Shown: positions 18,612-24,891 of the stretch, piece by piece
How positions within the stretch are numbered: the first letter of the stretch is position 1
How the letters are laid out: each line of letters opens with the position of its first letter
DNA from: a virus
Reading direction: 5' to 3' (one strand)
DNA: 26,391 bases
IMG/VR virus record: IMGVR_UViG_3300042429_000172
Location: 1-26,391 of that record
The notes under the pieces: model-generated
What the model was told of the DNA's origin: nothing
Database searches by the model: none
What the model saw: only the letters and a program-made list of their open reading frames with translations
Translations under genes and position numbers: made by a program

Positions 18612-18904
18612 TGGTTCGTTACGGCTACGGCTACCCGATTGGGATGCTGTTTCAGGGTAATGGATTTTACCTTGCATACTATAATGAATATCGGCAAAGA
18701 GGAATAGCTGATGGCGGGGCAATAGACAGCCCTACCGCTACAAGCTGTGCCGAGTCGAGGTTCGTTAGATTAATGCCTGTGCCTACAAACGGTTATATTT
18801 TAGCTTATAATACCCAAATGAGGTCTTTGGCTGATTCAGGAAATGGCTTTGATGCACGGACATTAGATTGTGCTGCTGGCAGAATAACACCTATAATAAT
18901 TTAA
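18611..18904 (+). CDS. Small protein with an internal two-fold repeat
   Basis: A 97-residue protein whose residues 18-50 and 61-91 repeat one pattern: G-aromatic-x-L-A-Y, a basic stretch with Arg, A-D-(G/S)-G, an acidic spot, Thr, then C-A and Arg. Each copy has one Cys (46 and 87), so the pair could form a bridge if exposed. The N-terminus is Gly/Tyr-rich (Y-G-Y-G-Y-P). I have a general memory of 'Y..R...DGG....C' units in proteins of Bacteroidetes phages but cannot name a function. It is directly upstream of the fibre genes and likely a virion surface protein. Confidence 0.5.
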   Translation: MVRYGYGYPIGMLFQGNGFYLAYYNEYRQRGIADGGAIDSPTATSCAESRFVRLMPVPTNGYILAYNTQMRSLADSGNGFDARTLDCAAGRITPIII

Positions 18905-18906
18905 AA

Positions 18907-20115
18907 ATGACGAACGCTTCCCTCTTAATTGTTCCCGACCGCTTTAAGGCGAGTAAGCTATACTCTCAGCTTCCACAAGACGGAAGTGGTGATTTTGTTG
19001 TTACGAGGGCAACTACTGCGTATAGAACTAACGAGAATGGCATTTTGGAATCAGTAGCTTCGGGCGTGCCAAGATTAGATTTTCCTATCGGCAGCGGTTG
19101 TCCTGCTCTTTTAGTTGAGCCTGCTGCTACTAATTTGTTTTTAAATTCAGTTTGGGCAGGGGGTGGAACTCCACCTACAAGCTGGGCAACGCCTTTTTTG
19201 ACAGGCACAGCGACAGTTGCAACGTCTACATTAAATCCATCCGTTGCTGCATATACATTTGCTACGGCTAACCAAAGGGCTGTTTTTAGCCAAAACATTT
19301 CGCAGACAAGCGGAGTTGTATATACGCACAGCATTTATGTTGAAGCGGTTACGAGTACTTTGACCGTTGAAAATTTACTCAATTACAACATTTCAATAGC
19401 TGGTATAAGCACTTTTAGAGAAGATGGCGTTGCTGTTTTGGCAACACACGTCGTGCAATCGGGAAAAAGGTATTCTTTAACAATTACTGCTCCAAGCACG
19501 GCTTCTAACCAAGTAAGAATCGGTAATGGTGTGTCTTCGAATACAACAGCAACAGTTCGATTAAGCTCGCCTCAAATCGAAACTGGCAGCGTAGCCACTT
19601 CTTTTATTAACACCACCGCTGCAACAGCTACTCGCAATGCAGATGTGATAAGCAAGACCGCTGTAAGTGGCTTGATAGGGCAGACGGAGGGAACGCTGTA
19701 TGCGGAGGTTAGCGCAAGCATATTTAATTCATCGTTAATTCATCGAATACTAACCATTAGCGATGGAACAACAAACAATAGGATAGGGATTACCCGTGTT
19801 GTTTTACAAAACAATAGGTTTCAAGGTATTGCGGCAAACAGCGGTTCTCTTACCGTACAAATACAGCAAACAGCAGATGTTACAGCAAATTCTGTTGTAA
19901 AACTTGCTTTAGCATATGCGCTAAATGACTATGCTTTTTATGTCAATGGAGTTTTAGTTGGCGTAAACACAAGCAGCGCAGTACCAGCTTGTAGCAGAAT
20001 TGATATAGGAAATCAATTAGGCTCAGACCAATTTGGCTCAGGATTAATCCGAGCAGCAGCCTTATACACCACCCGATTAAGCAACGCACAGCTGCAATTT
20101 TTAACCACGTTATAA
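18907..20115 (+). CDS. Fibre/adhesin protein A with lectin-like C-terminus
   Basis: A 402-residue protein; ATG at 18907, three bases after the upstream stop, is chosen over an in-frame ATG at 18868 that lies inside the upstream gene. The N-terminal domain (about 1-75) has R-A-T-T-A-Y-R-T-N-E-N-G and G-C-P-A-L-L-V-E-P-A-A-T-N-L, a motif I know from phage fibre and spike proteins. A beta-rich middle follows and ends G-S-V-A-T-S-F. Then G-L-I-G-Q-T-E-G-T-L-Y-A-E-V starts a LamG or concanavalin-like domain, which closes I-R-A-A-A-L-Y-T-T-R-L-S. It probably binds sugars on the host surface. A paralogue follows immediately with a different middle. Confidence 0.72.
   Translation: MTNASLLIVPDRFKASKLYSQLPQDGSGDFVVTRATTAYRTNENGILESVASGVPRLDFPIGSGCPALLVEPAATNLFLNSVWAGGGTPPTSWATPFLTGTATVATSTLNPSVAAYTFATANQRAVFSQNISQTSGVVYTHSIYVEAVTSTLTVENLLNYNISIAGISTFREDGVAVLATHVVQSGKRYSLTITAPSTASNQVRIGNGVSSNTTATVRLSSPQIETGSVATSFINTTAATATRNADVISKTAVSGLIGQTEGTLYAEVSASIFNSSLIHRILTISDGTTNNRIGITRVVLQNNRFQGIAANSGSLTVQIQQTADVTANSVVKLALAYALNDYAFYVNGVLVGVNTSSAVPACSRIDIGNQLGSDQFGSGLIRAAALYTTRLSNAQLQFLTTL
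19114..19136 (+). repeat. 23-bp direct repeat, copy 1 (in fibre gene A)
   Basis: A 23-base stretch beginning GTTGAGCCTGC and ending TACTAATTT is identical to 20324-20346 in the next gene, encoding V-E-P-A-A-T-N. It marks the border between the shared N-terminal domain and the divergent middle, a place where recombination could swap domains. Confidence 0.8.
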
Positions 20116-20116
20116 T

Positions 20117-21343
20117 ATGTCTACACCAAGCGTACTACTTATACCCGACCTCTTAAAAGCAGGGAAGCTATACTCGCAGATTCCTAATAGCGGTGCTGTA
20201 GACTTTGACGTTACCCGTGCTACTACTGCCTACCGAACCAACGCTTCAGGCGTATTAGAATCGGTCGCTTCGGGAGTTCCGAAATTAGACTACCCCATAG
20301 GTGGTGGCTGTCCGAGTTTGTTGGTTGAGCCTGCTGCTACTAATTTAGCGTTGAGGAGTGAAGAGTTTGATAATGCGAGTTGGGCTAAGACAAGGTCAAG
20401 CGTAACGCAAAATGCAACTACTGCGCCAAATGGTACAACAACCGCTGATAAGCTAATTGCATCAGTTGATAATAATACTCATTTTATTTTGCAATCCAGC
20501 ATAGTTGTCGTGGCACAAATATACTCCGCTTCTATTTTTGCAAAAAAAGGAGAGTATGATACTATCAGATTAAGAATGGTTAACCTATGGTCTCCAACTC
20601 CAACTGCGGTTTATAATTTAACATCAAAAACGATAGTTTCCACAGCTTCCTCCACCGCAAAAATAACAGAACTCTCTGATGGGTGGTTTAGGCTTGACCT
20701 TTCTGCTACTGCAAATGCTATTGCGGGAAGTAATGCGCAACTGGAAGTCTTAGTTGGCAACAATAGCGTGCTTTCTTTTGCTGGTGATGGCACATCAGGC
20801 ATTTTTATTTGGGGCGCACAACTCGAAGTTGGTTCAGTAGCCACCTCCTACATTCCAACCGTAGCAGCCACCGCCACCCGTAACGCTGACGTGATTACCA
20901 AAACGGGCGTGAGTGGGTTTATTGGGCAGACGCAGGGTACGCTTTATGCGGAGGTAAATTTGAGTCATATTACTACTAAAGGCTTTTTCGATATAAGTGC
21001 TGATTCAGGTAATTTTTACAGAATTAGAACAGCCAATAGTGGCACATGGATTTTTAGATACCGAACGGCAGCTGGTACTGAAACAACTATTTCAGACCTT
21101 AGTATTTCAAATACCTCAACTGGTATTTTTAAAATAGCGTTTGCTTACAAAGATGGAGATTATGCTTCGTGTGTGAATGGAGTGCTAAGAACTTCATCTA
21201 TATCGGGCATTTCTCCCATTGGAACGCTTTCTAATATCGAATTAGGACTTGGCCCAGTAAGTTTAAACGACCGCATCCGAGCCGCTGCCATCTACCCTAC
21301 TCGCCTTACAAATTCTCAGCTTGAATCTTTAACCACATTATAA
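20117..21343 (+). CDS. Fibre/adhesin protein B, paralogue of A
   Basis: A 408-residue protein with the same three-part layout as its upstream neighbour. The N-terminal domain is near-identical in pattern (R-A-T-T-A-Y-R-T-N-A-S-G, C-P-S-L-L-V-E-P-A-A-T-N-L). The middle is different and has the look of a carbohydrate-binding sandwich (S-A-S-I-F-A-K-K-G-E, D-G-W-F-R-L-D-L-S). A shared junction Q-L-E-V-G-S-V-A-T-S-Y and A-T-R-N-A-D-V follows, then a LamG-like domain from about 275 to the end (G-Q-T-Q-G-T-L-Y-A-E-V). It starts one base after gene A's stop. Two adhesins with different middles suggest either a mixed fibre or alternate binding specificity. Confidence 0.72.
   Translation: MSTPSVLLIPDLLKAGKLYSQIPNSGAVDFDVTRATTAYRTNASGVLESVASGVPKLDYPIGGGCPSLLVEPAATNLALRSEEFDNASWAKTRSSVTQNATTAPNGTTTADKLIASVDNNTHFILQSSIVVVAQIYSASIFAKKGEYDTIRLRMVNLWSPTPTAVYNLTSKTIVSTASSTAKITELSDGWFRLDLSATANAIAGSNAQLEVLVGNNSVLSFAGDGTSGIFIWGAQLEVGSVATSYIPTVAATATRNADVITKTGVSGFIGQTQGTLYAEVNLSHITTKGFFDISADSGNFYRIRTANSGTWIFRYRTAAGTETTISDLSISNTSTGIFKIAFAYKDGDYASCVNGVLRTSSISGISPIGTLSNIELGLGPVSLNDRIRAAAIYPTRLTNSQLESLTTL
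20324..20346 (+). repeat. 23-bp direct repeat, copy 2 (in fibre gene B)
   Basis: Identical to 19114-19136. The spacing between the copies is 1210 bases; recombination between them would fuse the N-terminus of A to the middle of B and delete one gene equivalent. Confidence 0.8.
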
Positions 21344-21922: not shown

Positions 21923-22167
21923 CCAACAAAGAACTTGCGATTATTCTATTAGACAAGCAATACAGCATTGTTGGATTGTCGTTTGATGAGGCGTGCAATA
22001 TGGATCGAGAGGAGTTTATAGCGTATAAAATGACCTTGGAGCAGCAGCAAGAATGGTCGGAGTGGGCGGTAGATTTCGCTGTTAAAAAGAAGCGGTGGAG
22101 TAAGAAGCTGGCTCGAAAAGAAGTAGCCATGCTGGATTTTCAGCACGGATTAAGCCTTATACTATGA
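21919..22167 (+). CDS. Small unidentified protein, 82 aa
   Basis: An 82-residue charged helical protein (M-T-N-K-E-L-A-I-I-L-L-D-K-Q, E-W-S-E-W-A-V-D-F-A-V-K-K-K-R-W), basic in its middle and without membrane segments. It overlaps the holin-like gene and the phosphoesterase gene by four bases each (ATGA), so it is translated as part of that unit. I do not recognise it. Its Lys and Arg content would suit nucleic acid or partner binding. Confidence 0.5.
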   Translation: MTNKELAIILLDKQYSIVGLSFDEACNMDREEFIAYKMTLEQQQEWSEWAVDFAVKKKRWSKKLARKEVAMLDFQHGLSLIL

Positions 22168-23990
22168 TTGAAAGAATTAGTAGAAACATTCACAAAGTTG
22201 CGGTTGATAAATCGCAGCTTTTTTTATTGCTTAGTGATTTGCATTGGGACAATCCTAAGTGCGAACGTGACCTCCTTAAACGGCATCTAAAGCAAGCAAG
22301 AGAACGAGGCGCAAAGATTGTCATTAACGGAGATTTCTTTTGTCTGATGCAAGGAAAGTACGACCCACGGAGAAGCAAGAAGGACATACTGCCCGAACAT
22401 AATAAGGCGAACTACATTGATGCAGTTGTCGAAGATGCGGTGAAGTGGTGGACACCTTATGCGGATATGATTCTTCTTATAGGATATGGCAACCACGAAT
22501 GCTACCATCCTGACACCAAGGTTTTAACCGACAAAGGCTGGGTAAACATTACCGAGGTAACGACCGAAGATATGGTGGCTACCTTTGACAACGAGCATAT
22601 CTATTTCGAGAAACCAAATGCGGTAGTATCAAAGCCAGCAGATAAGCTGTACACTATTGAGGGCGGATACACAAAGCAAGTAGTATCTTCTAAGCACGCA
22701 GTTATGTTAAACGACATGACCAAGATAAACGCTGAAGATTTTGCTACCTGGGCAGCACACGAAAGGGTAACGGAAATGGCTTTGCCACACGGCAGAAAAG
22801 TACAATCCAATTCAGAAGTAGATGCAAAGTGGGTAGAGATACTAACTGCTGTGGTAATGGATGCCACCATTGTTGACCACGCTAAATACGAGCCAGCAAG
22901 CAAAAAGATTAGAGTGCAGTTTAAGTTGAGCAAGCCTGAAAAGATTGCCTACATCCGCTCTATCTTAGATGCCTATGGTGTTGATTATACTTTTGCTGAA
23001 TGCAAAATGACTGGTGTAAATAAACTCCAGCCGTATTACATCCGCATTTATGGTGATTGGGCGAGAAAGATTAACCAAGACCTCAACGGAATTAAGCAGC
23101 TACCTGAAGCGTTTGCCTCTTTAACTGGTGATGGATTTGATGCCTTAATACAAACAATCCAAAAAACGGATGGCTCAATGGATGGCAATTTAACTGTGTG
23201 GTCATCAACTGACAGCGTTAACATTGACATCGTGCAGCGTGCTTGCATTCTCAATGGATGGTTGTTTAAGGTTAAAGTCAACAAAAGAAGAAGTGGATTC
23301 GCCAACGGCAAGCCTCAATACCTTGCTTCATTTATGCCAGCCTTGCACAAAGCGCAAAAGATAAACGTAAGCGAGCAGGACTACGATGGTTTGGTGCATT
23401 GTTTAAATATGCCTTCAGGCTGTTTCGTTACTCAAATAGATGGCAAGGTTGCATTTTCAGGAAACACTGCCATCATTAAGAACCTTGAAACCGATCCGCT
23501 CCAGCGTTTCGTTGACCTCTTAAATATGACCTGCGGAACAAACGTGCAAGTCGGTGGCTATGGTGGTGTTTTACACTATCAAATCGAAACAGCAAATAAC
23601 GAATTCACCAGCGCAATCATGAAATATTATCATGGTTTTGGAGGTGGTGGTGCGGTTACTAAAGGCGTTATTCAAGACCAAAGAATGATGGCACAATTGG
23701 ATGGCTATGATATTATTTGGATGGGTCACGTTCACGAAATGTACCACCACGTTAATATGGTTGATTGTTACGAGCCTATGTTTAAGCGAATAGTCCACAA
23801 AGAAGTGCACCAGCTAAGAACCGCAGCCTATAAGGAAGAATATGAGGATGGCTTCGGTGGTTATCATATTGAGAAGGGCAGACCTGTAAAACCTTTGGGC
23901 GGTTACTGGATGAACCTCGGAGGCACAAGAAGGCGAGAGAATGGTCGCAGAACTTTAAAGGCTGAAATATCTTTTACTAAAACTGACTAA
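22164..23990 (+). CDS. Calcineurin-like metallophosphoesterase precursor with intein
   Basis: A 608-residue precursor. The host protein is a metal-dependent phosphoesterase: S-D-L-H (Asp25, His27), N-G-D (Asp57), G-Y-G-N-H-E (108-112) and, after the insert, M-G-H-V-H (521-524). Between Glu112 and Thr435 lies a 322-residue intein, residues 113-434. Splicing would restore G-N-H-E-T and give an enzyme of 286 residues, a normal size for this family. Substrate unknown: possibly a nucleic acid end, a nucleotide or a phosphoprotein. It sits between the holin-like and endolysin genes and overlaps both neighbours (four bases at 22164-22167, one base at 23990). Before splicing the active-site loop is interrupted, so the enzyme should be off until the intein leaves. 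Confidence 0.9.
   Translation: MIERISRNIHKVAVDKSQLFLLLSDLHWDNPKCERDLLKRHLKQARERGAKIVINGDFFCLMQGKYDPRRSKKDILPEHNKANYIDAVVEDAVKWWTPYADMILLIGYGNHECYHPDTKVLTDKGWVNITEVTTEDMVATFDNEHIYFEKPNAVVSKPADKLYTIEGGYTKQVVSSKHAVMLNDMTKINAEDFATWAAHERVTEMALPHGRKVQSNSEVDAKWVEILTAVVMDATIVDHAKYEPASKKIRVQFKLSKPEKIAYIRSILDAYGVDYTFAECKMTGVNKLQPYYIRIYGDWARKINQDLNGIKQLPEAFASLTGDGFDALIQTIQKTDGSMDGNLTVWSSTDSVNIDIVQRACILNGWLFKVKVNKRRSGFANGKPQYLASFMPALHKAQKINVSEQDYDGLVHCLNMPSGCFVTQIDGKVAFSGNTAIIKNLETDPLQRFVDLLNMTCGTNVQVGGYGGVLHYQIETANNEFTSAIMKYYHGFGGGGAVTKGVIQDQRMMAQLDGYDIIWMGHVHEMYHHVNMVDCYEPMFKRIVHKEVHQLRTAAYKEEYEDGFGGYHIEKGRPVKPLGGYWMNLGGTRRRENGRRTLKAEISFTKTD
22500..23465 (+). other. Intein coding region inside the phosphoesterase gene
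   Basis: Codes for 322 residues from Cys113 to Asn434. Block A: C-Y-H-P-D-T-K-V-L-T-D-K-G-W. Block B: S-S-K-H-A-V-M (His178, intein residue 66). Two LAGLIDADG-type helices are visible, at residues 227-236 (L-T-A-V-V-M-D-A-T-I) and 328-338 (L-I-Q-T-I-Q-K-T-D-G-S). Block F/G: C-F-V-T-Q-I-D-G-K-V-A-F-S-G-N followed by Thr as the +1 extein residue. The penultimate residue is Gly rather than the usual His, a known variant. All parts needed for splicing are present, so it is probably active, with a homing endonuclease that may or may not be active. Confidence 0.92.
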
Positions 23991-24355
23991 TGACTAAAAA
24001 TTTTAAGTTAGAAGAATTTGCCTGCAGGTCAGGCGCACCGATGCCTTTGTCAGTTCGTACAAATGTAGAACGGCTCGCAAAGAACTTGCAGGTTTTGAGG
24101 GATGAACTCAAAGTCCCAATGACTATTACCAGCGGACATAGGTCTGCGGAGCATAATAAGAAGATAGGCGGTGCTACCTTTAGCCGACATTTAGTTGGTG
24201 ATGCTGCTGACTTTAAAGCGCAAGGAATTGCACCAAGTGCGGTCGCTGCTATTATCGAAAGATTGATAAGCGAAGGCAAGATGGAGCAAGGCGGTTTAAA
24301 GGCTTACGCTACGTGGTGTCATTATGATTGCTCCCTTAAGAAAAGAAGATGGTAA
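23990..24355 (+). CDS. Endolysin, M15 peptidase (D-Ala/L-Ala peptidase type)
   Basis: A 121-residue zinc peptidase that cuts peptidoglycan cross-bridges at lysis. It has I-T-S-G-H-R-S at 46-52 and S-R-H-L-V-G-D-A-A-D at 65-74, giving zinc ligands His67 and Asp74. A final W-C-H-Y-D (His111) supplies the third ligand. Length and order match the Peptidase_M15_3 family. No signal peptide, so it needs the holin to reach the wall. The start overlaps the phosphoesterase stop by one base (TAATG) and its own stop overlaps the spanin-like start. The usual 'F.H.D.R' ending is replaced by C-H-Y-D-C-S, with two extra Cys; otherwise typical. Confidence 0.88.
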   Translation: MTKNFKLEEFACRSGAPMPLSVRTNVERLAKNLQVLRDELKVPMTITSGHRSAEHNKKIGGATFSRHLVGDAADFKAQGIAPSAVAAIIERLISEGKMEQGGLKAYATWCHYDCSLKKRRW

Positions 24356-24891
24356 CCGAATTGAAAGCATATCGGATTATCTTCGCTGTAACGGCTTTTA
24401 TTCTTATAAGCATAGCGGTACACCAATGCAATAGAGATAATGCGCCACAGCCCACTAAAATAAGCGAGAGCGTTATCCTTTACGAAATGGCAGTCAGCGA
24501 AAGAAAGCAAGCCAAGTTATTATTAGATTCCGTTAGCCTATTAGAGAAAAAAAGAGATACGCTTTACATAATTAGAACAAGAGTGATAACCAAATGGGAT
24601 TCTCTTATTAGAACCTTTCCTGCGGATCAAGTGCTACCAGTTAGATTAGATTCTTGCTTAGAGGTCGGAGGCATTGTCTTGGCTGAATTAACATCTTGCG
24701 ATTCCGTTGTGGAATTTCAAGTGCAAATCATTAGCCATTTAGAGGCTGGCTTTCTTAAGATAGATAGCAGCCGTACTGAGTTAGCTGGCTATTTAGACGA
24801 AGTGAATAGAGAAGTAGCAAGACAAAGAAACCAAAAGAGATTAGCGTGGATAGCTGCTGGCGCATTTGCTTTGATGGGAATAATCTATTAA
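24349..24891 (+). CDS. Spanin-like membrane protein
   Basis: A 180-residue protein with an N-terminal membrane helix (about 8-25, R-I-I-F-A-V-T-A-F-I-L-I-S-I-A-V-H) and a second hydrophobic segment at the C-terminus (about 164-179, W-I-A-A-G-A-F-A-L-M-G-I-I). Between them are long helical, charged stretches (residues 45-75 and 125-160). Such a build, with a periplasmic coiled coil between two membranes, and its place right after the endolysin suggest a spanin that fuses inner and outer membranes in a Gram-negative host. No lipobox is seen, so it is not the classic o-spanin. It is the last gene before a strong terminator. Confidence 0.55.
   Translation: MVTELKAYRIIFAVTAFILISIAVHQCNRDNAPQPTKISESVILYEMAVSERKQAKLLLDSVSLLEKKRDTLYIIRTRVITKWDSLIRTFPADQVLPVRLDSCLEVGGIVLAELTSCDSVVEFQVQIISHLEAGFLKIDSSRTELAGYLDEVNREVARQRNQKRLAWIAAGAFALMGIIY

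Follow-up and report, generated by a model that had tools for sequence, protein, structure and literature searches.

Does the long stretch that separates the two halves of a viral phosphoesterase gene encode an intein or a normal domain of the enzyme, and, if an intein, what is it doing in a metal-binding motif? The gene lies in a window of 26,391 nucleotides, the whole stretch of viral DNA analysed here (IMG/VR record IMGVR_UViG_3300042429_000172), as an open reading frame of 608 amino acids (22164–23990) that is open along its entire length. The original prediction, made from the sequence alone, described an insert that starts with Cys and ends in Ser-Gly-Asn before a Thr. This is what the frame contains: 322 codons running from C1 to SGN/T at 22500–23465 (Table 1; a slash marks a splice junction here and below).

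Table 1. Features of the interrupted phosphoesterase gene, with positions in the window.
Feature	Position	Strand	Remarks
N-extein of metallophosphoesterase	22164..22499	+	112 aa; motifs SDLHWD, NGDFF and GNHE; Pfam Metallophos above cut-off
GNHE codons, GGC AAC CAC GAA	22488..22499	+	conserved motif just 5' of the N-terminal splice junction
Intein	22500..23465	+	322 aa; class 1; Cys1; C-terminal Gly-Asn; Hint domain and LAGLIDADG-type endonuclease
Splicing block A, CYHPDTKVLTDKGW	22500..22541	+	C1 in 12/13 relatives; Ser in L051
Splicing block B, SSKH (TxxH variant)	22686..22697	+	intein H66 invariant in 13 members
First LAGLIDADG-type motif, EILTAVVMDATIV	22836..22874	+	acid D121 in 12/13 members; absent from L051
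Second LAGLIDADG-type motif, LIQTIQKTDGSM	23145..23180	+	acid D224 in 12/13 members; Tyr in L051
C-terminal splicing blocks F and G	23385..23465	+	ends VAFSGN; penultimate Gly, not His; G321 and N322 in 13/13 members
C-extein	23466..23990	+	174 aa and stop; +1 Thr; metal-site motifs YYHGF and GHVHE; +1 Thr also in empty alleles

The insert begins CYHPDTKVLT, and removing everything from there to VAFSGN restores GYGNHE-TAIIKN. Its terminal residues are those expected for splicing (Cys or Ser at position 1, Asn at the end, and Cys, Ser or Thr at +1; here C1, N322 and Thr+1), block B conforms to the (T/S)xxH pattern, and both acids of a two-motif LAGLIDADG endonuclease are present, the first motif being divergent (MDAT). 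At the penultimate position, where class 1 inteins usually have His, the window intein has Gly321; a penultimate His is common in inteins but not obligatory. The junction had been predicted to lie inside a metal-ligand motif. The placement at GNHE was correct, but the junction falls directly after the Glu, at the edge of the motif; it is in some relatives that the junction truly lies within it (GNH/C).

The outer parts of the frame encode a calcineurin-like metallophosphoesterase, as predicted. Pfam Metallophos matched above its cut-off, the motifs SDLH, NGD, GNHE, HG and GHVH correspond to the DxH, GD, GNH(D/E), H and GHxH of such enzymes, and the fold agrees. G109, N110, H111 and E112 were invariant in 35 extein relatives, as were H168, H200 and H202. 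The model of an empty allele (pLDDT 83.9) had a metallophosphoesterase fold; the solved structures nearest to it, with TM scores that were modest throughout, included an Ap4A hydrolase, LpxH and DNA polymerase D, and the nearest viral structures were phage calcineurin-like proteins. PHROG 7339 (named DNA repair exonuclease) matched the enzyme at 8.7e-10, and no PDB sequence was matched by the extein profile. Because the metal-site motifs are divided between the two exteins, it is plausible that the unspliced precursor is inactive. The phage itself likely has a Bacteroidota host, because its terminase most resembles that of a faecal phage record and then those of Flavobacterium phages.

A whole-ORF scan of viral contigs found three empty alleles (L004, L005 and L006), which encode an uninterrupted enzyme reading GNHE-TAIIKN at the exact insertion point. 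The N-extein DNA of occupied alleles is 88–93% identical to theirs, and each encodes exactly 286 amino acids, in line with the product of about 286 residues that had been expected. These are independent contigs carrying the uninterrupted family protein, which shows the stretch from 22500 to 23465 to be an insertion rather than a normal domain: it is in frame, missing from homologues and surrounded by a complete host protein. The same scan yielded two other intein-bearing alleles, L002 and L003, in addition to L001. Among the fetched loci of the enzyme family with a scorable motif, 97 had no insert and 9 had one; in this count L068 repeats the L002 contig, and L001 shares 9228 identical bases with the window.

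Taken alone, the window intein gave only weak matches in Pfam, NCBIfam and PHROGs, and those to inteins were sub-threshold (TIGR01445 at E 0.024, short of its curated cut-off). An alignment of the 13-member family matched the structure of the AceL NrdHF intein (6zgq) at 1.3e-10, and single members matched Pfam Intein_splicing (4.7e-5) and LAGLIDADG_3 (6.7e-5), the latter family being matched in 6 of 13 relatives. The best PDB folds for an AF2 model of the intein (mean pLDDT 91) were the full, endonuclease-bearing inteins TliVMA, PI-SceI and PI-PfuI, and I-DmoI was also among the fold matches; model and 6zgq match both point to a Hint fold. Nearly all members retain Cys1, the block B His, both endonuclease acids and the C-terminal Gly-Asn. 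Empty alleles, intein profile, Pfam and fold matches agree with the prediction that the insert is an intein.

A relative at L051:3989-4942 has Ser1 and has lost both endonuclease acids (MGATF, HTYGS), and is likely a decaying member of the family. Inteins distantly related to the family occur in a PhoH-like gene of Acinetobacter phage AM24 (L159) and in the nicotinamide phosphoribosyltransferase gene of Staphylococcus phage phiSNIID (L160), the product name being silent on the intein in both cases. A PHROG match named 'PhoH-like' was rejected as a sign of relation to PhoH, because an intein inside a PhoH gene, like the one in AM24, probably accounts for it.

We consider it highly probable that the element is an active, mobile class 1 intein with a LAGLIDADG-type endonuclease, inserted between the Glu of GNHE and the following Thr; its splicing, cleavage and target sequence we infer. 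After translation, Cys1 would attack, the N-extein would be transferred to Thr+1, and Asn cyclisation, assisted by some other feature in place of the usual penultimate His, would complete an excision that leaves a normal 286-residue enzyme. In mixed infections the endonuclease would cut empty alleles at the codons of the conserved motif, and repair of the cut alleles would spread the intein.

What is the evidence for mobility? Comparison of the window with L002 gave 27 silent changes at 203 sites for the intein, against 30.5 at 91 for the neighbouring extein (Fisher p = 1.8e-4). Silent divergence was similarly lower in the intein than in the extein for window and L003 (p = 1.8e-3) and for L002 and L003 (p = 1.4e-5), although the three comparisons overlap in the sequences used and cannot be counted as independent. 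The dN/dS of the intein among the three was 0.07–0.17. Because both measures are low, the common ancestor of the intein seems younger than that of the surrounding gene, and the intein, which is under purifying selection, seems to have been kept functional. A lower silent divergence of the intein between phages is as expected from recent homing, and the element behaves like a mobile parasite. Recent homing is not universal in the family, because the inteins of two closely related host genes (L043:3659-5491 and L044:3659-5491) have diverged more at silent sites (dS 0.71) than their exteins (0.18 and 0.35), which suggests replacement of the intein or a separate gain.

These data bear differently on the other explanations. 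The weak direct family matches of the window sequence would suit an ordinary inserted domain, or a Hint-type processing domain other than an intein, but with precise empty alleles, the terminal splice residues in place, full endonuclease-bearing inteins as the nearest solved folds and family members that reach Pfam Intein_splicing, we give this reading practically no credence. An element that still splices but has a dead endonuclease, and is now inherited vertically and slowly lost, is a more serious candidate, albeit an unlikely one. Given its divergent MDAT, the endonuclease of the window intein could be weak or dead, and the loss of both acids in L051 indicates that such decay occurs in the family. 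Against this, the window intein retains D121 and D224, its low dN/dS extends across the whole intein, and its silent divergence is below that of the extein.

The original prediction also raised a timing control near lysis. In its fullest form, the intein would act as a regulated switch that keeps the phosphoesterase inactive until a late-infection signal triggers splicing. An inactive precursor, with its metal-site motifs split over the exteins, is compatible with this idea, as is the position of the window gene, which overlaps the gene of an M15 peptidase, with a spanin-like gene next in line. However, the close relatives L004–L006 lack the intein at the same locus, L040 and L042–L044 carry it without recognisable lysis neighbours, and a published phosphoesterase intein, that of the Bethlehem RDF, which has a penultimate Gly, splices completely in E. 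coli with no signal needed (PMC5050341). Together with the parasite-like behaviour of the element, these observations make a timing role very improbable, and an active, mobile intein is the reading we retain.

At 23990–24891, the peptidase M15 gene overlaps the phosphoesterase stop codon, and the product of the gene after it has one N-terminal hydrophobic segment and the look of an inner spanin (judged by eye; Pfam finds nothing). Also by eye, neighbours of the empty relatives L008 and L010 were judged lysis-like. Elsewhere in the window, two adjacent, related tail-fibre-like genes (18868–20115, with a Laminin_G_3 domain, and 20117–21343) share about 71% DNA identity over parts and are apparently a tandem duplication.

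The usual way to define an intein is by its host gene and its insertion site. In two profile scans of viral contigs this family was seen only in phosphoesterases, always at GNH: all 21 family-search loci, as well as Rheinheimera phage Barba and Klebsiella phage fENko-Kae01, have the intein in a metallophosphoesterase at this motif, in a search built on short peptide patterns that members in other host genes may have escaped. There are two insertion registers, one residue apart. The junctions read GNHE/C..GN/T in the window type, L040–L044 and L166; GNH/C..GN/C in L045, L047–L050, L167 and L177; GNHD/C..GN/C in L046; GNHE/C..GN/C in L182; GNHE/S..GN/S in L051; GNHE/S..GN/C in L183; and GNHE/C..GN/S in L184. 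A branch supported at 97/93 sets the 15 core members apart from the rest of the tree. Inteins of named phages outside phosphoesterases (in RNR, DNA polymerase, PhoH and methyltransferase) are 20–24% identical over most of their length, and the only match in a plasmid search, at 23% identity, was in a methyltransferase.

The window intein is 32–42% identical to inteins outside its own enzyme subfamily (z 58–137), whereas the host enzymes of those inteins have no detectable pairwise similarity to that of the window (z -0.2 to 3.2). Some of these other hosts are mutually related, with BLASTP giving four groups among 14 representatives. The simplest reading is horizontal movement between enzyme subfamilies at a common motif, the alternative being very unequal evolutionary rates. 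Empty relatives in the L050 subfamily natively read GNHC in 4 of 5 cases (GNHD in the other), so that a Cys already in place can serve the intein there as +1 residue; empty relatives of L045 were also looked for, and none was found. A broader proposal, for and against which we judge the case evenly balanced, is that this single lineage has specialised on one catalytic tetrapeptide. It would have jumped between metallophosphoesterases that share little but GNH(D/E/C), and its insertion point would have moved by one residue to gain a +1 nucleophile that it can use; in Barba phages, the spliced enzyme would then have Cys instead of Asp as the fourth residue of the motif.

What seems new here is a distinct intein lineage found only in phage phosphoesterases at GNH(D/E/C), whose hosts often have no detectable mutual similarity. 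Within literature that covered few subscription journals, we found no paper on a lineage spanning phosphoesterase subfamilies, nor one on the Barba intein. As the lineage follows a short catalytic motif across dissimilar enzymes, it could be used to test how homing endonucleases move to new hosts.

How does the window intein compare with known systems? TliVMA, PI-PfuI and PI-SceI share its two-domain fold over the full length, but have only 7–12% sequence identity to it and unrelated host proteins. Closer in setting are the mycobacteriophages. Phosphoesterases had been thought an uncommon intein host in the original prediction, but inteins beside the same motif in mycobacteriophage A1 RDF/metallophosphoesterases were published in 2016 (Kelley et al., PMC5050341), and a 2025 announcement again reports phosphoesterase inteins in mycobacteriophages (PMC12613952). 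We read Adahisdi gp51 as an example of the Bethlehem gp51-type cluster A1 RDF intein; its position, GNHD/C...LTGN/S, is homologous to the window's site. Like the window intein, it is inserted in a phage calcineurin-like phosphoesterase directly after the homologous motif, and it has a penultimate Gly and a similar length (317 vs 322 amino acids). In contrast, its host is of another enzyme subfamily and acts as a recombination directionality factor, and the two inteins are only about 24% identical. On the family profile it had the lowest score of 13 outside inteins, a biased comparison since the outsiders were picked by similarity to the family, and the branch that has it and the window family on the same side is supported at only 88/58. 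The RDF intein may have come to occupy the site independently.

The intein of Klebsiella phage fENko-Kae01 (ENKO_296, annotated as a hypothetical protein) is about 31% identical to that of the window and also lies in a phosphoesterase, at GNH/C...GN/C, but in another host subfamily and in the register of Barba. The Barba intein (NC_048189.1), again in a phage phosphoesterase at GNH, is 33% identical over the full length; unlike the window's, its register is one residue earlier (GNH/C...GN/C), and its phosphoesterase subfamily has no detectable similarity to the window's. The gene is annotated merely as a phosphoesterase or serine/threonine phosphatase (L033:2764-4233, L163:1501-2049), and NC_048189.1 names no intein. 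The empty sibling 10-9F reads GNHD-AKS where 18A reads GNH/intein/CSKS, and the DNA of the two is 99.94% identical upstream and 80.8% downstream. Because empty siblings read GNHD and occupied ones GNH/C...GN/C, the spliced Barba enzyme would carry Cys where Asp was. Among 115 cultured Barba records, 83 match the intein and 32 align with at least 80% of the length of the empty gene. Barba phages that carry the intein and others that lack it, all on a single bacterial host strain, thus constitute a ready natural system.
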